IMG/VR virus record: IMGVR_UViG_3300027733_000203
Coordinates: 1 to 23,519 of that record
Origin: a virus
Direction: 5' to 3' (one strand)
Length of the DNA stretch: 23,519 nt
The notes under the pieces: model-generated
What the model was told of the DNA's origin: nothing
The model's database searches: none
What the model saw: only the letters and a program-made list of their open reading frames with translations
Shown: positions 4,825 to 22,366 of the stretch, one piece after another
Layout of the letters: the number at the start of each line of letters is the position of its first letter
Position numbering within the stretch: the stretch's first letter is position 1
Position numbers and translations under genes: made by a program

Positions 4825-4873
4825 GGCCCCCACTTCGGGGCCTTGCAACGCCTTGCAACGCCGTTTGCAACGC
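4825..4873. repeat. Hairpin plus TTGCAACGCC direct repeats
   Basis: GGCCCC (4825-4830) and GGGGCC (4837-4842) form a six-base-pair hairpin with a CACTTC loop. It is followed by three copies of TTGCAACGCC (about 4843, 4853 and 4865; the third separated by CGT). It occupies the middle of the 141-base gap between terminase and portal. There is no T run, so a terminator is not supported. Confidence 0.5.
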
Positions 4874-4912
4874 CCTCCCCGGCCCGACCGCGCCCCGCTT
4901 TTCCGCCACCGC

Positions 4913-7258
4913 ATGAAACTCCGCGACTTCATCCCCCCCGTGTTTGCCCGTGTCGCGCAGAAATCCTTTGCCGCCACCGCCGCCGCCTGGACGCGCGGGG
5001 ATGATCTCACCGACCGCCCCGCCACGAAGCTCGTCAGCTCCTACGCGCAATCCGGCTGGGTGCACGCCGCCGTCAATCTCGTCTCGGGGGAATTCACCGG
5101 CCTGCCGCTCTGCTTCTACGCCGGCACCGAGGAATTCGACAACCCCGCGCTCGACGCCTGGTGGGCCGCGCCCGCCCTCGGTCCCGATGGCAAACGCCTC
5201 GACCGCGCCTCGGTCGATCGCCTGATCGCTCTCTGGCTCCAGACCGAAGGCGAATTCTTCCTGCTCCTCGACGACGCCTGGCTGCTCTCCCGCTTCGCCA
5301 CGTCTTCTGCGTCTTCCAAGTCTTCCGCGTCTTCCCCATTTTCATCCACTCCCTTCATCGTCGCCCGCCCGGATCGCGTCCGCCTCATCGTGCAGGCCGG
5401 CACGCTCCGCGGCTACGAATACACCGACGCCGCCGGCCGCCGCTCCGTCTATCTGCCCGAGCAGGTCGTGCACCGCATGGAGCCCAACCCGCTCGACGAG
5501 TGGCGCGGCCTCGGCCGCACGCAGGTCGCCCGCGTCGCCACCGAGGGCGCCTTCCTCACCGGCGTCTACATCCGCGACCTCATGCGGAACAACGGCGACC
5601 AGGGCTTCATCGTCGTCGGCAAGGGCGGCGTGGTCGACGATGCCCAGCGCGAGCAGATCGTGGCCGGCCTCCGCGCCAAACGGGCCGCCCTCCGCTCCGG
5701 CATCGCCAAAGACCTTTTTCTTACGGGCGACATCACTGTCGAGCGCCCCACCGAGCAGGCGGCCGGCGCCGATCTCACCGCCTCGCAAGGCATGAGCCAG
5801 CAGGAAATCTTTGTGACGCATGGCGTGCCGCCCTCGATGGCGACCGTGAAGGCCGTGTATTCCATCGGCAAGGATAGCGACCGCTACCAGCTCATCACGT
5901 CGACCAGTCAGCCGCTCTCCCGCCTCATCACCGGCGCCTACAGCGAACTCGCCCGCCGGCAGACGGGCCTCGATCTCCGCGCCGAGCACGATTGGGACGA
6001 TCACCCCGTGATGCAGGAGGTGCGCCGCGCCCGCCTCGATGCCGGCCTGAAGCTCTGGGCCACCGGCATGGCCTGGCGCGACATCAACGATTATCTCGGC
6101 CTCGGCCTCAGCAAGTTCCCTGGCTGGGAGGTCGCCTATCTCCCGTTCTCCGTCTCGCCTCTTTCTTCCGGCGACGTCGCGCCCGCCCTCGATCCCGTCG
6201 CCGATCCGATGCTGGCGGAGCCCGAAGACGATACCCTCAAGACCCTCCGCCTCCTGGTGCTCGCCCGCAGCCGCACCGCCGCGCCGCGCTCCGTCGTAGG
6301 GCCGCCGCTCGCCGGCGGGCCGCTCCGTTGCGCCACCGCTCCAGACGAGTTCGCCGCCTTCACGTGCGGGTGCTCCAGTAGCGGCGAGCGCCAGCGAGTG
6401 GCTTCGACGGATCGCGATGAACTCGTCGCCCAACGCGCCGACCGCCCCGCCGCCGAGATCGCCCGCTGGAAAACCCTCATCGCCCAGCGCCGCGGCACCG
6501 TCTCGGCGTTCAAGAGCGCCTTCACCCGCGTCCTCATGCAGGCCCGCGTCGAGACCCTCAAGAAAATCGAGGCGGTGCACGTCGATCCCAATAAGCTCTC
6601 AGCTCTCAGCTCTCAGCGCTCAGCCCCGATCCGCAAGAACGTCGCCATCGATTTCCTTTTTGACCTCGCGAAGTTCGCCAGCGGATTCCGCGGCGCGATG
6701 GAAAACCAGCAGAAGGCCGCGCTAAAGACGGCCGGCGATCAGCTCTTCGCCGAGCTGGGCAAGACCGATCCCTTCGCCTCGCCGCCGGCCGCCGTCACGG
6801 AATTTCTCGCGCAGCGCGAAAACAAACTCCGCGGCGTGCCGCAGTCTGTGTTCGACCGCGTGAAGGCCACGCTTCAGGCCGGGCTCGATGCCGGCGAGAC
6901 CACCGCCCAACTCTCCGCCCGCGTGAAGAGCGAATTCAACGGCATGGCCGACGAAGACGCCCGCCGCATCGCGCAGACCGAGACGAGCGCCGCCTACGGC
7001 TCCGGCCGCGACCAGGCGATGCGCGCCGCGGGCATCCAGTTCAAGGCGTGGCTCACGAGCGGCAACGGCAACGTGCGCAGCTCGCACGAGCAGGCCGGGC
7101 TCGACTACCCGCCCGACCGCGGCATCCCGCTCGACGAGCCCTTCATCGTCGGCGGCGAGGAACTCATGCACCCCGGCGACACGAGCGGCAGCGCCGGCAA
7201 CGTGATCAACTGCCACTGCGTGAGCATCGCCGTCAAAGCCCCGGAGGACGCCGCATGA
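4913..7258 (+). CDS. Phage portal protein fused to MuF-like head morphogenesis domain
   Basis: This 781-residue protein has two recognisable parts. Residues about 30-430 match HK97-type portals (PF04860): AVNLVSGEFTGLPLCFYAG, HRMEPNPLDEWRGLGRTQV, and QEIFVTHGVPPSMATVK, followed by a clip/crown region. Residues about 650-781 form a Mu gpF/SPP1 gp7-like domain (PF04233), with ARRIAQTETSAAYGSGRDQA, WLTSGNGNVRSSHEQAGLDY and the terminal NCHCVSI. The portal forms the dodecameric ring for DNA passage, and MuF proteins are minor capsid components that enter with DNA. The linker (about 445-575) contains repeat-derived segments at nucleotides 6292-6410 and 6594-6624, and the portal domain has a Ser-rich insert at 5301-5336. 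ATG 4913 is preferred over upstream codons because MKLRDFIPP starts a plausible portal N-terminus. Portal-MuF fusions are known but uncommon. Confidence 0.92.
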   Translation: MKLRDFIPPVFARVAQKSFAATAAAWTRGDDLTDRPATKLVSSYAQSGWVHAAVNLVSGEFTGLPLCFYAGTEEFDNPALDAWWAAPALGPDGKRLDRASVDRLIALWLQTEGEFFLLLDDAWLLSRFATSSASSKSSASSPFSSTPFIVARPDRVRLIVQAGTLRGYEYTDAAGRRSVYLPEQVVHRMEPNPLDEWRGLGRTQVARVATEGAFLTGVYIRDLMRNNGDQGFIVVGKGGVVDDAQREQIVAGLRAKRAALRSGIAKDLFLTGDITVERPTEQAAGADLTASQGMSQQEIFVTHGVPPSMATVKAVYSIGKDSDRYQLITSTSQPLSRLITGAYSELARRQTGLDLRAEHDWDDHPVMQEVRRARLDAGLKLWATGMAWRDINDYLGLGLSKFPGWEVAYLPFSVSPLSSGDVAPALDPVADPMLAEPEDDTLKTLRLLVLARSRTAAPRSVVGPPLAGGPLRCATAPDEFAAFTCGCSSSGERQRVASTDRDELVAQRADRPAAEIARWKTLIAQRRGTVSAFKSAFTRVLMQARVETLKKIEAVHVDPNKLSALSSQRSAPIRKNVAIDFLFDLAKFASGFRGAMENQQKAALKTAGDQLFAELGKTDPFASPPAAVTEFLAQRENKLRGVPQSVFDRVKATLQAGLDAGETTAQLSARVKSEFNGMADEDARRIAQTETSAAYGSGRDQAMRAAGIQFKAWLTSGNGNVRSSHEQAGLDYPPDRGIPLDEPFIVGGEELMHPGDTSGSAGNVINCHCVSIAVKAPEDAA
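5301..5336. repeat. GTCTTC-type tandem repeat inside portal
   Basis: Four copies of a nine-base unit close to GTCTTCCGC are read in frame as Ser/Ala/Lys-rich SSASSKSSASS (portal residues about 130-142). The insert sits just after LLSRFA and before PFIVARPDRVR, which otherwise would join as one beta hairpin. Confidence 0.75.
6292..6410. repeat. GC-rich palindromic repeat cluster in portal linker
   Basis: CCGCCG (6302-6307) and CGGCGG (6313-6318) form an inverted repeat that extends outward imperfectly to 6299-6321. A second GC-rich block, CAGTAGCGGCGAGCGCCAGC, lies at about 6376-6395. The stretch is translated in frame between the portal and MuF domains but has Cys/Gly/Arg-rich composition unlike the rest of the protein. 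It resembles dispersed intergenic repeats. Confidence 0.55.
6594..6624. repeat. AGCTCTC heptamer repeat inside portal-MuF linker
   Basis: Four AGCTCTC-like units are read in frame as LSALSSQRSA (residues about 561-571) within the linker before the MuF domain. Confidence 0.8.
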
Positions 7259-7321: not shown

Positions 7322-7352
7322 TCTCTCAGCTCTCAACTCTCAGCTCTCAACT
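7322..7352. repeat. AGCTCTC/AACTCTC heptamer repeat before prohead protease
   Basis: Four heptamer units lie 20 bases upstream of the protease ATG. The 31 bases, plus the following TTTCC, are identical to the copy at 16563-16593 upstream of the tape measure gene. Confidence 0.85.
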
Positions 7353-9615: not shown

Positions 9616-9647
9616 GTCTCTCAGCTCTCAGCTCTCAACTCTCAGCT
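9616..9647. repeat. AGCTCTC heptamer repeat before adaptor
   Basis: Four heptamer units (AGCTCTC/AACTCTC) end six bases upstream of the adaptor ATG. They fully replace any ribosome-binding site. Confidence 0.85.
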
Positions 9648-9653
9648 CCCCTC

Positions 9654-10784
9654 ATGGACCTCGGCCTCGGCAATCTCACGCAGCTCAAGGCGCACCTCCT
9701 CGCCGAGGCGCTGCGCTCCGGCACGACCTACGACACCACCCTCGCCGCGCTCGGCAAAGGCGTGGCCGCGCGCTTCGAAGGCCATTGCCACCGCAAGTTC
9801 GGCCGCGTCGTGGCCGACACCCACGAGTGCTCCGCCGCCCGCGATCACGTCGTGCTCCCGCGCTACCCGGTCGAATCCGTCTCGGCGATCTCCCTCCGCG
9901 AAACGCTCGCCACTGGCTGGGTCGACCAGGGCACCGTCTCCGATCTCGTCGAAAACATTTCCGAGGCCGCGGGGCTCGTCACTCTCAGCTCTCCGCTCTC
10001 CGCTCTCAGCTCGGCACGCCTGCGCGTGACGTATACCGGCGGCTACTGGTATCCCACCAGCGCCGCGCGCACGATCCTCTCCGGCTCCGCCTCCTTCTCC
10101 GTGGGGCAGAGCACCGCCTTCATCACCTTCGCCTCTGCCTTCGATGCCGTGCCGGCCGTGGGCGTCACGCTCCAGGCGCCCGACGGCTCGCCGATCTTCG
10201 ACGTCACCCCGCAGGCCATCACGCGCACGGGCTTCACCATCGCCCTCGCTGCGGCCGCCGGCTCCGGCTATTCGGTCGCATGGGTCGCCGCCGATGCCTC
10301 CGACGATGCCGATGCCTCCGTGCTCCAGAGCGGCAGCGCGAGCCTCACCCTGGCCGCCGAGAGCAAGGCGATCACCTTCGGCACCGCCTTCACGGCCGCC
10401 CCCATCGTCTTCTGCCAGGTCGTCGCGCCCGCGAGCGGGCTCGTGATCGCGTGCTCGCCCACGCTCATCACCACCGCCGGCTTCACCGCCCCGCTCGGCT
10501 TCCCGATCCCCGCCACGGGCTACACCCTCAACTGGTTCGCCTTCGCCGTCGGCGCCACCACCGCCGCGCCCACGCTGCCCTCCGGCGCCACCGCGCTCCC
10601 CGACGATCTCACCGCCGCCTGGCTGCACCAGTGTGCCCTCGTGTGGGCCAGCCTCGACGTGCTCGGCACCGGCCTCTCCGACGAAAAAGCCCGCACCGCC
10701 ACGCGCGACAACCTCGGCAAACTCACTCTCTCGCCCGACGTGGCCGAGACGCTCCGGCGCTACCAGCGCCACGTCGTCACCTGA
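9654..10784 (+). CDS. Head-tail connector/adaptor with two inserted H-lectin-like domains
   Basis: This 376-residue protein begins like a gp6/gp15-type head-tail adaptor: helices at about 8-45, then strands VLPRYPVESVSAISL (67-81) and ARLRVTYTGGYWYP (121-134). It ends with the usual C-terminal helices LPDDLTAAWLHQCALVWASL (315-334) and DVAETLRRYQRHV (362-374). Between them, residues about 142-214 and 224-299 are two related beta domains. Each follows the pattern GSAS-x-x-x-x-x-x-x-x-x-ITF-x-x-AF-x-x-xP...IT-x-x-GFT...GY-x-x-x-W-x-A, which matches the H-type lectin/gp53-like fold (PF09458). The adaptor joins portal and tail and is normally 100-200 residues, so the insert doubles its size and probably projects at the neck. 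A heptamer-derived LSSPLSALSS (111-120) interrupts the core strand region. Confidence 0.85.
   Translation: MDLGLGNLTQLKAHLLAEALRSGTTYDTTLAALGKGVAARFEGHCHRKFGRVVADTHECSAARDHVVLPRYPVESVSAISLRETLATGWVDQGTVSDLVENISEAAGLVTLSSPLSALSSARLRVTYTGGYWYPTSAARTILSGSASFSVGQSTAFITFASAFDAVPAVGVTLQAPDGSPIFDVTPQAITRTGFTIALAAAAGSGYSVAWVAADASDDADASVLQSGSASLTLAAESKAITFGTAFTAAPIVFCQVVAPASGLVIACSPTLITTAGFTAPLGFPIPATGYTLNWFAFAVGATTAAPTLPSGATALPDDLTAAWLHQCALVWASLDVLGTGLSDEKARTATRDNLGKLTLSPDVAETLRRYQRHVVT
9981..10012. repeat. Heptamer repeat inside adaptor gene
   Basis: Four units (CTCTCAG, CTCTCCG, CTCTCCG, CTCTCAG) are read in frame as LSSPLSALSS, between residues GLVT and ARLRVTYTGG of the adaptor. Confidence 0.75.
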
Positions 10785-10788
10785 TCCC

Positions 10789-11355
10789 GTGAGCCTCACC
10801 GTCGACATCGCCCTCACGCCCTCCGCCGCCGCGCTCCTGCGCAGCAGCAAGACGTGGCCCGCGAAAATGTCGCAGGCCATCGCGCACGGCCTCGACTACG
10901 AGAACGAGCTGACCATCGGCCACGCGCAGGCCCGCCACCTCAGCCGCCGCGGGCCCACGACCCTCGGCGTCGTCACCAACCGCCTCCGCTCCTCGCTCAA
11001 CCAGGTCTCCGCCGCCATCGACGGAAACTCCGTCATTTCCTCGATCGGCACCAACGTCGCCTATGCCGGCGCCCACGAGTTCGGCTTCGTCGGCCGCGTG
11101 CAGGTGAAAGCCTTCACGCGGAAGGTGAACACCTACGCCGGCGGCACGAAGCTCGTCGCGCACCTCGCGAAATCCGGCCGCATCGTGAAGAAGAAGGCGA
11201 AGATCACCGCCACCGGCACGCAGCAGGTCAAAGCCCACACCCGCATGATGAAAATGCCCGAGCGCTCCTTCATCCGCTCCAGCATCCGCGAACGCTCCGC
11301 CGACTACTCCGCCACCCTCAGCAGCGCCATCGTCGCCGCCTTCGCCCGCTCATGA
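10789..11355 (+). CDS. Phage virion morphogenesis / tail completion protein, Mu gpG-like
   Basis: This 188-residue protein starts with GTG (read as Met). It contains the motif pair typical of the phage virion morphogenesis family (PF05069; Mu gpG, P2 gpS, HK97 gp10-like). These are ISSIGTNVAYAGAHEFGF (about 84-101), corresponding to Y-A-x-x-H-x-F-G, and the ending MPERSFIRSSIRER (about 156-169), corresponding to P-x-R-x-F-L. The Lys-rich middle (about 108-150) is longer than in short relatives. Members act in head completion or tail-end joining. It starts four bases after the adaptor stop, and its stop overlaps the start of the next gene (ATGA), so the neck proteins are co-translated. Confidence 0.85.
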   Translation: MSLTVDIALTPSAAALLRSSKTWPAKMSQAIAHGLDYENELTIGHAQARHLSRRGPTTLGVVTNRLRSSLNQVSAAIDGNSVISSIGTNVAYAGAHEFGFVGRVQVKAFTRKVNTYAGGTKLVAHLAKSGRIVKKKAKITATGTQQVKAHTRMMKMPERSFIRSSIRERSADYSATLSSAIVAAFARS

Positions 11356-12077
11356 CCACCTTGGAACGTCAACTCCTCGACATGCAGGCCCGGCTCGAAG
11401 CCGACGCCTACTTCATCGACGTGCCCATCTTCGTCCTCCGCCCCCGTGCGCAGGAGGGCGCCGCGCAGATTCAGACCCGCATTGACCAGGCGCTTTCCGG
11501 GCTCGTGCAGAAGGCCGGCAAGTGCGGTGCAGCCGTCACGCTCCTCATGCCCACGGGCGACACCGACAAGCCGAACATTCCCGGCCCCGCCCTCCGCTTC
11601 ACCTACACCGCCCGCGTGCAGGAGATCATTGGTGTGAACATGGGGCCCAACGGCACGCAGAAGAGCGCCGAGGAAATCGCCGTGGCTGTGCTCCAGTGCT
11701 TTCATCACGCGAGCCTCAACGGCCGCCACGTTCTCACCGCCTCGGCCGATACGCTCACGCCCTCCCTGGAGGCCGATCCGAAGCTGACCTATGACGTGCG
11801 CTTCAGTGCGCAGGGCAATCTCGCCAAGCCCACCAAGTGCGCGCAGCCGATCATCTCGCCCAGCTCCGGCGCCGTGCCGCAGACCGTCACCCTCACCTGC
11901 GCCACCGCCACTGCCGCGATCTATTACACGACGGATGGCAGCTATCCCTCGCCCCTGAACTCCACCGCGACCCGCTACACCGCCCCGATCTCCGTCACCG
12001 TCGCGTGCACCCTGCGCACCGCCGCCCACCTCGCCGCCTACCAGCAGAGCGACATCGCCGAAGCCACCTTCACCTGA
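11352..12077 (+). CDS. Tail terminator-like protein with C-terminal chitobiase/Fn3-associated-like domain
   Basis: This is a 241-residue protein. The first about 155 residues (LERQLLDMQARLEADAYFID, TRIDQALSGLVQKAGKCGAA, LRFTYTARVQEIIG, DVRFSAQGN) have the alternating helix/strand layout of tail terminators or tail completion proteins. Position between a gpG-like protein and the tail tube supports this. Residues about 165-241 form an extra domain: PIISPSSGAVPQTVTLTCAT, IYYTTDGSYPS, RYTAPISVTVACTLRTAAH. This is the pattern of chitobiase/beta-hexosaminidase C-terminal or Fn3-associated domains (PF13290/PF13287 type), found on extracellular carbohydrate-active enzymes. The terminator normally caps the tail tube, so the domain would project around the neck. 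ATGA overlap with the previous gene fixes the start. Confidence 0.8.
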   Translation: MTTLERQLLDMQARLEADAYFIDVPIFVLRPRAQEGAAQIQTRIDQALSGLVQKAGKCGAAVTLLMPTGDTDKPNIPGPALRFTYTARVQEIIGVNMGPNGTQKSAEEIAVAVLQCFHHASLNGRHVLTASADTLTPSLEADPKLTYDVRFSAQGNLAKPTKCAQPIISPSSGAVPQTVTLTCATATAAIYYTTDGSYPSPLNSTATRYTAPISVTVACTLRTAAHLAAYQQSDIAEATFT

Positions 12078-13054: not shown

Positions 13055-13087
13055 GCTCTTCGCTCTCAGCTCTCAGCTCTTCGCTCA
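13055..13087. repeat. Heptamer repeat before unknown tail gene
   Basis: Units of CGCTCTCAGCTCTCAGCTCT are flanked by two CTCTTCGCT copies. They run directly up to the proposed TTG start at 13089. Confidence 0.75.
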
Positions 13088-13531: not shown

Positions 13532-15280
13532 ATGAAACGCCTCCTCCTCCGCCGCTTTGCTCTCAGCTCTCAGCTCTCAGCTCTCAGCTTTCTCCTGGTC
13601 GCGCTCTCCGCTCTCAGCTCTCAACTCTCAACTCGGGCGCTCGGCGCCCAAGGCATCAAAGACCTGAGCCTCGCCGGCACGACCACCGACGCCAGCACCT
13701 ACAACGCCAGCGCCGCGCACACCTTTCTCTCGGGCGCCAGCGCCACCTTCGCGAGCGGCAGCACGCTCACGCTTAGCGGCGCCTTCGCCGGCACGCCCAC
13801 CGGCGGCACGCTCAACCTCGCCGCGCTCACACTTACCCTCCCGAGCAACTTTGTCACGCTTACCGGCACGCAGACCCTCACCAACAAAACCCTCACCAGC
13901 CCGACGCTCACGACGCCCGCCCTCGGCACCCCTGCCAGCGGCACGCTCACCAACGCCACCGGCCTCCCGCTCACCACCGGCGTCGCAGGCACCCTCCCCG
14001 TCGCCAACGGAGGCACCGGCATCACCGCCGTCGGCACGAGCGGCAATGTCCTCACGAGTAATGGCACTGCTTGGGTCAGCTCCGCGCCCACAGGCGGAGG
14101 CGGCGTGGCCAGCATCACCGGGACAAGCGGCCAAATCACCGCGAGCGCGAGCACGGGAGCGGTGACGCTCTCAATCCCCACCGCAGTCACCTCCGTCAAT
14201 AGCATCACGGCGAGCGCGGCCACCGACCTGACACTAAACGCAGGCAGCACGACCGGGAGCGTTTTTCTCGTGCCGACGGGCACTGGTGGCGTCAAGCTTG
14301 GGACATCGGCATATTACGATTGGCCGAATACGCAATTCGTCATAGGGAACTCCGTCCAGGCGGGTCTGTTTTTTTCCAGCACAGGGGAATTTGTCTCCCG
14401 CCGCGAGGCGGCTAATGGAAAGATGCGGATACAAACAGTAGGAGACAATACCGTCCAAGGTTACGTTGCATTCGACCGTGCGCGCGGCACCATTGCCAGC
14501 CCGACCGCCCTCGGCTCTGGCGATGTATTCGCGAGCCTTGTCGGAGTTGGGCACGACGGCAATGCGGGCAGCCTTTACCACTCGCCGCAGATGAATCTTT
14601 ATACGACGGAGGCGTGGACGTCTTCCGCTCACGGCAGCGCGTTTTCGTTCTCTACGGTGGCTAATGGCACCACCGGGCAAGAGTTGAACTTGCGCATCGG
14701 CAACGCCGGAAAAAATTACGTCGATATTCCCAACCAACTGCTGGTCGGAAATACCGTTAATGATACAACCAATGTCCTGCGGATAGCTAAAGCCAACTCA
14801 TCGTCGGGCCAAATGGTCGTCGACGGCGGCACCAGCACACTCCTCCACTTCGGCCTGTTCGCTAACGAGGCCTATCTTTTTAACAATTTTTATTATCTCG
14901 GAGGCCAGCAGACCGACAACTCTGGATTTACCAGCGCGGGCATCATCCTTAGTCAGACGGATATTAAATTTCAGATGGCCCCGGCCTCTGCCTCCCCAGC
15001 CCGCGTTACGGGGATGGCAATGATCGGCACCGCACTTGCTACTGGAAATGTTGCGGTCAACTACACCACCGAAGCAACCACCGGAGGCGCGGGATCTCTG
15101 GCCGCGGCCGGCGGCATCTATGCAGCAAAGCAAGTCGTGAGCACTGGTCACACGCTCGTTCCGCAAACCGCTCCCGCCTCCCCCTTGTCCGGCTGGACGC
15201 TCTACACCGACAGCGGGGACGGCAACAAGCTCAAGGCCAAGGCGTCCACCGGCACCGTCGTCACCATCGGCACCCCGTAA
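13532..15280 (+). CDS. Tail-fibre-like protein with signal-peptide-like N-terminus
   Basis: This 582-residue fibre-type protein contains the classic motif series [20 protein letters not shown] (about 115-134), [19 protein letters not shown] (145-163) and [14 protein letters not shown] (171-184), which recurs in phage fibre shafts. It ends with [19 protein letters not shown], a pattern common at fibre C-termini. The receptor-binding middle (about 247-513; nucleotides 14270-15070) is visibly poorer in GC and uses codons (ATA, TTA, AAT, ACA, GGA) seldom used elsewhere. The first 40 residues are hydrophobic and basic ([20 protein letters not shown]) with a possible cleavage at ALGAQ, built largely from AGCTCTC heptamers. 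Export would be odd for a virion fibre, so either the true start is further in or the protein is displayed at the cell surface. The spacer upstream is CT-rich. Confidence 0.82.
13559..13634. repeat. Double heptamer array inside fibre leader
   Basis: Two arrays (13559-13590 and 13602-13634) of AGCTCTC-type units encode LSSQLSALS and LSALSSQLS, flanking FLLVA. They supply most of the signal-peptide-like leader of the fibre protein. Confidence 0.8.
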
Positions 15281-16562: not shown

Positions 16563-16593
16563 TCTCTCAGCTCTCAACTCTCAGCTCTCAACT
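16563..16593. repeat. AGCTCTC/AACTCTC heptamer repeat before tape measure
   Basis: Four units are identical in sequence to 7322-7352, including the following TTTCC. They end seven bases before the GTG start of the tape measure gene. Confidence 0.85.
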
Positions 16594-17998: not shown

Positions 17999-20900
17999 AT
18001 GTCCGTCACGTGGAAAATCAACGGCTCGGCGGTCGCCGATCTCGGCATCGAGCGCGCCGTGTTGCGCTTGGTCAACCAGCTGCCTGACACGCTCACCTTC
18101 GAGACGGCACGCGTCGAATTCGACACGAACGCTGCCTACACCAGCGCCCCCACCGTCACCTTCACGGGCGGCGGCGGCACGGGGGCCACTGCCACGACGA
18201 GCATCGCTTCCGGCGTCGTCTCCGCCCTGACGCTCACCGCTCCTGGCAGCGGCTACACCTCGGCCCCGCTTGTTTCACTCGATGGCGGTGGCAGCTTCGG
18301 CGCCACGGCGCGCGCGGTGCTCACGCCCGCCACGGTGGCGAGTGCCACGCTCACGGCTGCCGGCAGCGGATTCACCAGCGCGCCCACCGTCACCGTCTCC
18401 GGTGGCGGTGGCAGCGGGGCCGCGTTCACGGCCGTGCTGGCGACGCGCACCGTCGCCTCGCTGGCGATCACGGCCGGCGGCACCGGTTACACGAGCGCGC
18501 CCACGGTGGTCTTCACGGGCGGCGGCGGCACCGGCGCCACGGCCACCGCGGTGCTCTCCGGTGGATCCGTCGTCTCCCTCACACTCACGGCCGCCGGCAC
18601 CGGCTACACGAGCGTGCCCACCGTCGCACTTTCCGGTGGTGGCGGCACGGGCGCCACGGCCACGGCGGTGCTCACCGGCACGAGTGTGGCCTCGGCTGCG
18701 CTCAGCGCCGCCGGCGCCGGATTTACGACCGCGCCAGCCGTCACGGTCTCGGGCGGAGGCGGCACGGGTGCGGCGGTCACCGCCGTCCTGGCCGGCACGA
18801 GCCTCATCGGCCTCACGGTGAGCGCGGGAGGCGGTGGCTACACTACGCCGCCCACCGTTTCGATTACGGGCGGCGGCGGCAGCGGTGCCACCGCCGTGGC
18901 GATCCTCAGTTCCGGCGCGGTGATAGGTATCACGCTCACGGCGGCCGGCACGGGCTACACCTACGACACCATCGTGACCCTCTCCGGCGGCGGGGGCAGC
19001 GGGGCGACCGCCCATGCCGTGCTCACCGCCACGGGCGTGGGTTTCGTGAATCCGGTGAGCGACTACAACGCGTGGGCGGCGGGCATCACGCCGGTGATCA
19101 CCTTCAGCGGCGGGGGCGGATCAGGGGCCGCGGCCACGGCAGTCCTCGCCGACGTCGTCACTTCGATTGCGGTGGGTGGATTCGGCAGCGGCTACACTTC
19201 GGCGCCCACCGTCACGATCTCCGGCGGCGGCGGCAGTGGCGCCACGGCCTTTGCGGTGCTCAGCACGGGCACGGGCGCCGGTAAGGTTTACAAAGTCGTC
19301 ATCACCAACCCTGGCACGGGCTACACCTCGGCGCCCACGATCACGCTGTCTGGTGGGGGCGGCTCGGGCGCCTGGGCGACCGCGGCTGTGGCCCGCGTGA
19401 TCACCTCCGTCACGATCACCGCGGCCGGCAGCGGCTACACCTCGCCACCCACCGCGCGCTTCGTGGGCGGCTTCAACGACTACACGACGACGACGGAACT
19501 TCAGGCGACCTCCATCGGATCCATTGCCGTCACGGCTGGCGGCAGTGGCTACACCAGCGCGCCCGCGGTGGCGATTTCCGCCCTCAATCTCGGCCGGGCC
19601 TACCTCACGCTCGAAATCGCGGGCGGGGCCGTCTCGGCGCTCCATATCACGACGCCGGGCCGCAACTACACGAGCGCGCCCACCATCACCATCGTCACGG
19701 GCGACGGTCTGGGCAGCGGTGCCACCGCCACGTGCACGATTTCCGGCGGATCAATCGCCACCGTGACGCTCACGGCGGGTGGCAGCGGGTATTCTGACTT
19801 CCGGGGCGGCGATCTGCTCGCGCTCCCCGTGCCGACCAGTGGCACCGGGGCGACGGCCACGGCCAGTTTCGGCGTGTCGGTGAGCAGCCTCGCACTCACG
19901 GCCGCAGGCACGGGCTACACCAGCGCGCCATCGATCAGCTTCAGCGGGGGAGGCGGCAGTGGAGCCGCTGCCTCCGCGGTGCTCACGCCCACCACACTCG
20001 CCTCGCTCACGGTAAGTGCGGCCGGCACGGGCTACACCTCCGCGCCGACGCTCACCATCGCCCTCGGCGCCGGCGCGGGCGCCACCCTCGCGACCGGCAC
20101 AGCTACGCTCACCGGCACGTCGCTGGCCTCGCTCAGTGTCACGGCTGGCGGCACGGGCTACACCTCAGCCCCCACGGTAGGCTTCACGGGCGGCGGTGGC
20201 ACCGGGGCCACGGCGACGGCCGCCATCGCCACCCAAGTGGCCTCGCTCACGCTCACCGCGGCCGGCACGGGCTACACGAGCGCACCGGCGATCTCGTTCA
20301 CCGGAGGTGGCGGCACCGGTGCGGCCGCCACGGCTGCACTCACCGCGGCCGTCCTCGCCTCGCTCACGCTCACGGCGGCCGGCACCGGCTACACGAGCGC
20401 GCCCACGCTCACGATTTCAGGGGGCGATGGCACCGGCGCGACGGCGGTGGCGGTGCTGACTCCTACCAGCATCGCGAGCCTCGTGCTCACTAATAACGGC
20501 GGCGTGCTCCAGCCCGACACCGCCATCGTGCTCACGCGCGAGGAGTCCGGTGCGGAGGTCACGTGGTTTTCCGGCGTGATCCGCCAGACGCCCCGCTCCC
20601 GCAGCTCGCAGGACAATCGGATCGGCTACGTGGCGGAAGGGCCCTGGCAATGGCTCCAGCGGCTGCCCTACCTCCAGGTCTTTAAGCAGGCGGCCACGCC
20701 CTCTGATCCCCTGTCGACGCTCTCCGACTATTTGCGCGGCCGTGTCGTGATCGGCCAAAACGAGGCCGGAGAAAAAGTCTCCCTGGGCGAATTTCTGAAC
20801 CTCGTGCTCGACTACGCCATCGCCGCCAAGCCGGGCGTGATGCAGCGCGCGGATTTCAGCACCGCGATCACCGGCACGATCCCCTGGGATGAAGTCACCG

Positions 20901-22366
20901 ACCTCTCCTGCGCCGAGGTGATCTCGCGCGCGCTCCAGTTTGTGCCCGATGCCGTGTGTGCGTGGGACTACACCGTGGCGCCGCCCCGCCTCAATATCCT
21001 GCGCCGCGCCGATCTCACCGCCCTCGATCTCGCTGTGCAGCCCACCGGCACGGCTGACAGTGCCGCCTACGTGCCCTTCTCCTCGGTCGATCTGCGCGAG
21101 CGTCCCGACCTCAAAAAGTCGGCGGTGTGTCTCCTCTACCTCGCGACCAATCGCGACAACGATGCACAGTGGGAAATCGTCACCGCCGACTACTACCCCA
21201 CCGACGCCACGCCCAACCATCCCGACACGCTGTATCGCACGATCCAGCTCGCCGGCTCCGTGTCGACCAGCACGAACCTCCAGCAGAAAATCGACGTGGA
21301 CCCGCTGGGAAGCTACCTTGATTACGCTACCTCGGCTTGGCTCACGAGCGGCAGCCAGTTCGATTCGTTGAAAACATGGTGGCTCAACCACTCCAAGGAA
21401 CTGGACAGCGCCTACATCACGGTGAAGGGCTTCCTCAAGTGTGCCCGCACCGGCGACAGCATCGGCACGACCGGCCAGCTCGACAACGAACTCGTCGGCG
21501 GTGCGGTGACCGACTGGATGGAAAGCGCGCAGGAAATCCGCTCGGAAGAGCAGCAGGTGACGGCCTACATCGCGTTCGAAGAAGCGCGGCCGAACGACTC
21601 CAGTAAAAAGGCGCGCCACATCAAGAAATTCGTGGCCAGCGTGCGGGCCACCAACGCCACGACGAAGACCTACTCCTTTTCGTCCGGTTCGGAGTCGACT
21701 GCGGCCGAAGCTGTGCCCACGGGATTGGCCGAGATGATCCATGGCGCGATCAGCGTGACGCAGTGGGATGGCTCGCTCCTGATCGTGGAAGCTGAGGCCA
21801 CCCGCTCGGCGCTCATCGGTTGCGTGATCAACCTGACGGGCAGCCTCACCGATTGGGCCACCATGCGGGCGCAGGTGCAATCGGCCCAGATCGATCTCTT
21901 TCGCGGCGAAACCCGCGTAAATGTCGGCCCGGCGAGGCACCTCGGCCCGGACGATCTCGTCGAACTGTATCGCGTGAACCGAAACCGCCAGGCCGTGACC
22001 TCAACCGGCACGCGCACGAGTGGCGTCACAGGCACGGTCGGCGGCAATCAGGGCCTCGGCCGCCACCATCGCGGCGGCGCGCGGGCGACAGGCGTCGCGC
22101 AGGCGCCGGGGCGCTATACCTCCGCCGTGACCGTGGCCGGCACCGTGCCCACATCGAGCGAGATCGGCGCGGCCGTGCTGGCGGCCTACTCGGGTGACAA
22201 TATCCCCGTCGAAGGCGATGTCGTGAGCCTCACCGTGGGCGGCACCGTCAAGTTCTCTGCCATCGTCACCCTCACCGCCATCGCGGTCGATGGCTGGCGT
22301 CGCGTTGCCTTCACTTTTTCGAGCGTCAGCTACTATGCGTGGGTGAGCCAAGTGGGGCTCTACTGA
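17999..22366 (+). CDS. Giant baseplate-hub-like protein with inserted 20-unit beta repeat array
   Basis: This is a 1455-residue protein. Residues 1-38 (MSVTWKINGSAVADLGIERA) look like the start of a phage tail hub. The same domain appears to resume at about 833 (LQPDTAIVLTREESGAEVTW) and continues through WFSGVIRQTPRSRSS, a helical part (DYLRGRVVIGQ), LSCAEVISRALQFVPDAVCA and DYTVAPPRLNILRRADL, typical of hub or late-control proteins. Between, residues about 45-828 hold about 20 tandem units of roughly 39 residues, consensus GYTSAPTVTFSGGGGTGATA followed by TAVLT and a strand ending TLTAAGT. Such repeats probably form an extended beta-solenoid or fibre. The C-terminus (about 1340-1455) is Gly/Thr-rich and then a small beta domain. 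It starts six bases after the tape measure stop. An adhesion or spike role is inference. Confidence 0.85.
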   Translation: MSVTWKINGSAVADLGIERAVLRLVNQLPDTLTFETARVEFDTNAAYTSAPTVTFTGGGGTGATATTSIASGVVSALTLTAPGSGYTSAPLVSLDGGGSFGATARAVLTPATVASATLTAAGSGFTSAPTVTVSGGGGSGAAFTAVLATRTVASLAITAGGTGYTSAPTVVFTGGGGTGATATAVLSGGSVVSLTLTAAGTGYTSVPTVALSGGGGTGATATAVLTGTSVASAALSAAGAGFTTAPAVTVSGGGGTGAAVTAVLAGTSLIGLTVSAGGGGYTTPPTVSITGGGGSGATAVAILSSGAVIGITLTAAGTGYTYDTIVTLSGGGGSGATAHAVLTATGVGFVNPVSDYNAWAAGITPVITFSGGGGSGAAATAVLADVVTSIAVGGFGSGYTSAPTVTISGGGGSGATAFAVLSTGTGAGKVYKVVITNPGTGYTSAPTITLSGGGGSGAWATAAVARVITSVTITAAGSGYTSPPTARFVGGFNDYTTTTELQATSIGSIAVTAGGSGYTSAPAVAISALNLGRAYLTLEIAGGAVSALHITTPGRNYTSAPTITIVTGDGLGSGATATCTISGGSIATVTLTAGGSGYSDFRGGDLLALPVPTSGTGATATASFGVSVSSLALTAAGTGYTSAPSISFSGGGGSGAAASAVLTPTTLASLTVSAAGTGYTSAPTLTIALGAGAGATLATGTATLTGTSLASLSVTAGGTGYTSAPTVGFTGGGGTGATATAAIATQVASLTLTAAGTGYTSAPAISFTGGGGTGAAATAALTAAVLASLTLTAAGTGYTSAPTLTISGGDGTGATAVAVLTPTSIASLVLTNNGGVLQPDTAIVLTREESGAEVTWFSGVIRQTPRSRSSQDNRIGYVAEGPWQWLQRLPYLQVFKQAATPSDPLSTLSDYLRGRVVIGQNEAGEKVSLGEFLNLVLDYAIAAKPGVMQRADFSTAITGTIPWDEVTDLSCAEVISRALQFVPDAVCAWDYTVAPPRLNILRRADLTALDLAVQPTGTADSAAYVPFSSVDLRERPDLKKSAVCLLYLATNRDNDAQWEIVTADYYPTDATPNHPDTLYRTIQLAGSVSTSTNLQQKIDVDPLGSYLDYATSAWLTSGSQFDSLKTWWLNHSKELDSAYITVKGFLKCARTGDSIGTTGQLDNELVGGAVTDWMESAQEIRSEEQQVTAYIAFEEARPNDSSKKARHIKKFVASVRATNATTKTYSFSSGSESTAAEAVPTGLAEMIHGAISVTQWDGSLLIVEAEATRSALIGCVINLTGSLTDWATMRAQVQSAQIDLFRGETRVNVGPARHLGPDDLVELYRVNRNRQAVTSTGTRTSGVTGTVGGNQGLGRHHRGGARATGVAQAPGRYTSAVTVAGTVPTSSEIGAAVLAAYSGDNIPVEGDVVSLTVGGTVKFSAIVTLTAIAVDGWRRVAFTFSSVSYYAWVSQVGLY
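18131..20482 (+). repeat. Coding tandem repeat, about 20 units of 39 codons
   Basis: Each unit reads roughly Gly-Tyr-Thr-Ser-Ala-Pro, a strand, Gly-Gly-Gly-Gly-Ser/Thr-Gly-Ala-Thr-Ala, a strand, a turn and a strand ending in Ala-Gly-Thr/Ser. I count about 20 units. Those in the middle (units 8, 10, 12-15 and 17) are degenerate or carry short insertions, while units 2-7, 11, 16 and 18-20 are close to consensus. All are in frame inside the hub-like gene. Confidence 0.9.

Follow-up and report, generated by a model that had tools for sequence, protein, structure and literature searches.

Head-tail adaptors, which seal the DNA and dock the tail, are among the more constrained parts of the virion, and the presence of two extra lectin-like domains within one of them raises the question of how they came to be there and what they might do at the neck. 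The window, that is, the whole stretch of DNA that we analyzed, is the 23,519-base virus record IMGVR_UViG_3300027733_000203 (positions 1 to 23,519). An ORF located between 9654 and 10784 on the plus strand codes for a protein of 376 aa and contains the feature at 10076-10553 (residues about 142-301). Upstream of it lie a portal protein with a fused Mu F-like domain (4853-7258) and the major capsid protein (to 9470), and directly after it a tail-completion/Neck1 protein (10789-11355) that matches PHROG 26. The gene thus follows those for portal and capsid and precedes the neck/tail completion gene, the order expected of a head-tail adaptor. A second contig carries the same sequence, with 99.95% identity over 7,982 bases around the adaptor gene, which makes an assembly accident unlikely. 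The features of this region, all on the plus strand, are the following:

9654 to 10784, plus strand: head-tail adaptor of 376 aa into which two H-type lectin-like domains are inserted, as assigned by PHROG 442, PF09458, alignment and fold.
9654 to 10052, plus strand: N-terminal part of the adaptor, residues 1-133, predicted to hold a pair of tube helices together with an attachment-type beta domain whose end is TYTGGYWY (PHROG 442; alignment with 38 relatives; pLDDT mostly 90-98).
10080 to 10295, plus strand: H-type lectin-like domain copy 1, residues about 143-214 (PF09458 above cut-off; repeat of copy 2).
10296 to 10328, plus strand: Asp/Ala/Ser-rich linker between the copies, residues 215-225 (residues 218-220 of low confidence in the model).
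10329 to 10547, plus strand: H-type lectin-like domain copy 2, residues about 226-298 (single-domain fold search; repeat of copy 1; equivalent to the single copy of the related loci L007 and L008).
10578 to 10781, plus strand: C-terminal part of the adaptor, residues 309-376, with PSGATALPDDL, a tube helix, the adaptor loop and C-terminal helices (alignment with relatives; helices predicted at 317-333, 344-355 and 361-370).
11352 to 12077, plus strand: terminator-like gene, its role assigned by position, with a C-terminal CHB_HEX_C_1/Fn3_assoc domain at about 11865-12056 (PF13290, E 7.8e-13).

To which family does the protein belong? PHROG 442 (head-tail adaptor) matches residues 17-131 with an E-value of 3.7e-9, and it also recognizes 35 of the 39 relatives that were aligned. 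At the other end of the protein, residues 309-376 correspond in the alignment to the C-terminal part of the relatives; the first-pass annotation, made from the letters of the window, had likewise placed adaptor sequence on both sides of the lectin-like region. An AlphaFold2 model of the 376-aa protein, built with 39 aligned sequences, reached a pLDDT of 83.9 overall, with values mostly of 90-98 in the adaptor core, about 70 in copy 1 and about 86 in copy 2. When the core was compared with known structures using Foldseek, it resembled the neck adaptors of RcGTA, DT57C and phage 812 with probabilities of 0.99-1.00, and the model retains the attachment-type domain (residues 52-129), whose last strand is predicted at 122-129. 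Judged by PHROG 442, gene order and predicted fold, the ORF at 9654-10784 is a head-tail adaptor. The full model also matched, over 227 columns, the BFVD entry A0A6J5SH11, a predicted phage protein of 285 aa (Gp6 domain containing protein) that is about 90 residues longer than the other Gp6-type proteins listed and may represent a further adaptor bearing an insert.

Between the two adaptor halves, the annotation had proposed two domains at 10076-10553 that share an ITF/GFT/GY-W pattern, and this repeat was borne out. Over an alignment of 71 residues, copies 1 and 2 are 37% identical (E 2e-10), and their alignment score of 107 compares with 32 +/- 6 for shuffled sequences, of which the maximum was 60. 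In a six-frame translation of the window, the motif ITF-x2-AF-x3-P ... IT-x2-GFT ... GY-x3-W has exactly two occurrences, each of them in the adaptor insert, and it arose in none of 20,000 shuffles of the adaptor protein. The Pfam family H_lectin (PF09458) matches residues 155-201 of copy 1 with an E-value of 1.6e-7 and 31.8 bits, against a cut-off of 24, and the score rises to 35.5 bits when the insert alone is used as the query; six other window proteins included in the same scan gave no match to it. Copy 2 alone (13.2 bits) and the L007 copy (12.9 bits) fall below the same cut-off, and the L008 copy had no match to PF09458. Since its Pfam score is sub-threshold, copy 2 is taken as lectin-like from its repeat relation to copy 1 and its predicted fold. 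The annotation had suggested H-type lectin or gp53-like domains: the former agrees with the Pfam match of copy 1, while the latter stands by fold, through AP22 gp53, and not by Pfam, as Gp53-like_C (PF21882) scored 11.3 bits on the adaptor, under its cut-off of 24.9.

Searches of the PDB at the sequence level produced nothing convincing for either the protein or the profiles, so a comparison of folds was needed. Foldseek matched the insert of the full model to discoidins, the Helix aspersa agglutinin, the R2 pyocin fiber and the LKA1 tailspike. Copy 2 modeled alone was predicted to form six strands, with a pLDDT of 91.8, and its top 20 PDB matches consist only of lectins of the H-type fold and of pyocin or phage fibers or tailspikes. 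The lectins, from snail, slime mould and coral, are HAA, HPA, SLL-2 and discoidins; the fibers and tailspikes are the R1/R2 pyocin feet (TM-score 0.68-0.71), AP22 gp53 (4mtm), LKA1, phi297 and Pam1, for most of which a discoidin-like domain is documented (PMC6363177, PMC6116203). At about 1e-2 the E-values of these matches are modest, as is usual for a query of 81 residues, but the list is uniform. PDB matches to PRD1 P3, an antibody and VKOR were considered chance, as they are partial and have E-values of 0.03 or worse, and an Ig-like domain was rejected, since no Ig-family Pfam match was obtained at E-values up to 1 and H-type lectin folds rank first in the fold search. That two domains of the H-type lectin fold lie between the two adaptor halves is thus well supported by profile matches and predicted structures. 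The annotation had also said what would speak against it, namely the lack of an H-lectin match or a fold in which this region forms part of the adaptor core; we found an H_lectin match, and the region is modeled as a separate beta-sandwich pair. The inserted domains are short, about 75-80 residues compared to about 100 in the snail agglutinins (102 alignment columns), so their sugar-binding loops may be reduced. A sequence alignment to HPA and HAA, in which we sought the GalNAc-binding residues, covers one core region only, and loops are variable across the whole H-type/discoidin-like fold (PMC6363177).

How did the domains enter the adaptor? Alignment-based scans retrieved 41 viral and two bacterial loci; with the window protein alone as the query, the scan of bacterial genomes gave no loci. 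The bacterial loci are a Verrucomicrobia MAG and Luteolibacter marinus, and as both belong to Verrucomicrobiota the host of the virus is probably a member of that phylum. A tblastn search of 50,697 phage records with the adaptors of the window, L008 and L019 yielded nothing meaningful among isolated phages. The spacing between the GGYW motif and the next helix is 13-28 residues in 39 related loci (a few of them near-duplicates), compared to 101 in L008 and 106 in L007, with one copy each, and 182 in the window, with two; the single copy of L007 and L008 aligns on copy 2 of the window. In the model, the insert falls between the final strand (122-129) of the attachment-type domain and the tube helix that follows (317-333). 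Only three of about 44 relatives have the insert, and further scans for adaptors bearing it added no others to L007, L008 and the near-identical contig. From these alignments, the lectin-like domains are a true insertion in the adaptor. A foreign base composition of the insert was ruled out, as its G+C content is like that of the flanks. In a tree of adaptor cores the inserted state requires one change (support 68/88; 64% of bootstrap trees), and a single gain, with which this tree is compatible, is favored but not proven.

What might the domains do at the neck? We propose that an exposed adaptor loop, between the last strand of the attachment domain and the tube helix, took in an H-type (discoidin-like) lectin domain, which this phage has in two copies. 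As solved relatives suggest, 12 adaptors would form a ring around the DNA channel, with about 24 lectin-like domains pointing outward from the neck. In RcGTA the channel is 35 Å wide at its narrowest (PMC7296036), and twelve inserts of 160 residues (about 17 kDa each, about 210 kDa in all) are too large for it and would have to face outward; in the R4C and 812 adaptors, too, the accessory beta-sandwiches are located on the outside. There they could bind host-surface or capsular glycans weakly but multivalently, a contact that would help to keep the particle on the cell or to orient it, as with carbohydrate-binding modules that other phages have on necks, tails and capsids. In a lactococcal phage of the 936 group, a neck CBM binds host cells, albeit weakly (PMC6669499), and the R pyocin fiber foot, with its H-type/discoidin-like fold, has been proposed to bind LPS as the receptor (PMC6363177). 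Counted against glycan contact are the short loops, the presence of the insert in only three of about 44 relatives, and the argument of the R4C authors that an adaptor-borne domain is too near the head to aid adsorption and serves local stability (PMC10276861). Weighing these analogies, we lean slightly towards domains that point away from the neck and touch host glycans in a weak but multivalent way.

The main rival, which we regard as less likely, is that the domains are a structural brace that binds no sugar: they would rest against the capsid vertex, the stopper or one another, making the neck stiffer and taking up the mismatch between 5-fold and 12-fold symmetry. The beta-sandwiches of the R4C and 812 adaptors sit outside and touch the capsid (PMC10276861, PMC12886913), as the RcGTA attachment domain binds it (PMC7296036), the LKA1 tailspike study gives stabilization as a possible second role of the fold (PMC5701251), and the short loops of the inserted domains fit as well. 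However, the adaptor already has an attachment-type domain (52-129) and 39 related loci do without the insert; a copy number varying between zero, one and two would be odd for a load-bearing part, and documented members of the fold mostly bind glycans or belong to receptor-binding proteins. It is less probable still that the domains serve as a platform on which a further component of the virion docks, for instance neck whiskers or collar fibers. Whisker density surrounds the neck adaptor of phage 812 (PMC12886913), and the lectin-like and CHB_HEX domains on several neck/tail proteins of these phages could bind each other, but no whisker or collar-fiber gene was identified in the window and the H-type lectin fold typically serves for binding at the end of a protein and not as a base for docking. 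Finally, a low-complexity coincidence or assembly artifact, to which the Ala/Ser/Thr-rich protein and the heptad repeats within its gene might point, is highly improbable, given the second contig at 99.95%, the motif never arising in shuffles, the uniform fold matches and, excluding it in practice, the two divergent phages with one copy at the same place.

The heptad repeats are short arrays of CTCTCAG/CTCTCAA, all on the plus strand and mostly at gene junctions:

2527-2849, 6589-6622, 7323-7349, 9618-9651, 9982-10008, 13056-13082, 13553-13630 and 16564-16590, plus strand: heptad arrays.

One of them ends just 5′ of the adaptor ATG, and another lies inside the adaptor gene, where it encodes LSSPLSALSS. 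A 20-base heptad probe gave 25 matches compared to 0 expected, and in the related loci such arrays are absent except in the near-identical contig. A different repeat is found in the 1455-aa tail protein (17999-22366), which has a long array of the GYTSAPTV-x-GGGGTGATATA type near its N-terminus, with a 117-base period in part, apparently inserted into an otherwise ordinary tail-hub-like protein; repeats similar to it give many matches to PHROG structural proteins.

Besides the adaptor, several neck/tail proteins of these phages bear lectin-like or other beta-sandwich modules. The CHB_HEX_C_1 domain is present once each in 24 of 35 related records. In the phage of L008, a second lectin-like domain (hhalign probability 96) forms the end of a 221-aa protein (L060:1051-1716) whose gene lies about 3 kb downstream of that for the adaptor, and a protein with a weak terminator match (L051:3473-4225, E 0.1) has a lectin-like domain at its C-terminus. 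The same lectin-like domain ends a pectate-lyase tailspike in L053, the usual place of the fold. Phages of the group commonly have a terminator-like protein that ends in a CHB_HEX_C_1/Fn3_assoc domain (11352-12077 in the window; L004:5394-6146; L007:4454-5161; L008:4449-5177). We tentatively suggest, as a possibility that we would not yet call probable, that the group builds an adjustable glycan-binding collar into an obligatory connector, with zero, one or two copies per adaptor (0, 12 or 24 domains per virion) and with beta-sandwiches shuffled onto neighboring neck and tail proteins, which would create a second zone of host contact at the head end of the tail. The relatives with zero, one and two copies form a natural series in which to ask whether decorations of the neck contribute to contact with the host or do no more than stiffen it, and the insert marks an adaptor loop that tolerates 80-160 extra residues.

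No description of a tandem H-type lectin inside an adaptor was found in the open-access literature searched. Adaptors with accessory beta-sandwiches and necks with carbohydrate modules are already known separately, and H-type lectin domains of phages had been noted on tail-side proteins, namely gp17 of a P. acnes phage (PMC3094311) and the Page tail fiber (PMC3990757). The RcGTA adaptor Rcc01688 (PDB 6toa, 6tba; PMC7296036) shares with the window protein the tube helices, attachment beta domain, adaptor loop and C-terminal part, but it has about 195 residues and lacks the lectin insert, and its attachment domain binds the capsid. The R4C adaptor (PMC10276861) also carries an accessory beta-sandwich on the outside of the ring; however, this is one N-terminal Ig-like attachment domain touching the capsid, whereas the window protein is predicted to have two H-type lectin folds within an inner sequence loop. 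The adaptors of phages 812 and Mycofy1 (PMC12886913) are similar in combining an alpha-helical core with an outer beta-sandwich, which in their case contacts the capsid and for which a lectin nature is not reported. As for the fold itself, the R pyocin foot, AP22 gp53, the C-termini of the LKA1 and phi297 tailspikes, and HPA, HAA and the discoidins (PF09458 fold) have TM-scores of 0.5-0.7 to copy 2, but they are trimeric fiber tips or free trimeric or hexameric lectins, with loops longer than those of the window. Mycobacteriophage Douge (PMC13033339) resembles the proposed arrangement in having domains that bind the surface of the host and sit on the virion body, apart from the tail tip, but these are Ig-like and are placed on the capsid and tail tube, not on the adaptor. 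The neck passage structure of the lactococcal 936 phages (PMC6669499) likewise displays CBMs at the neck, one of them shown to bind host cells; these have other folds and belong to a separate collar protein, whereas in the window the predicted lectin-like domains are part of the adaptor itself.
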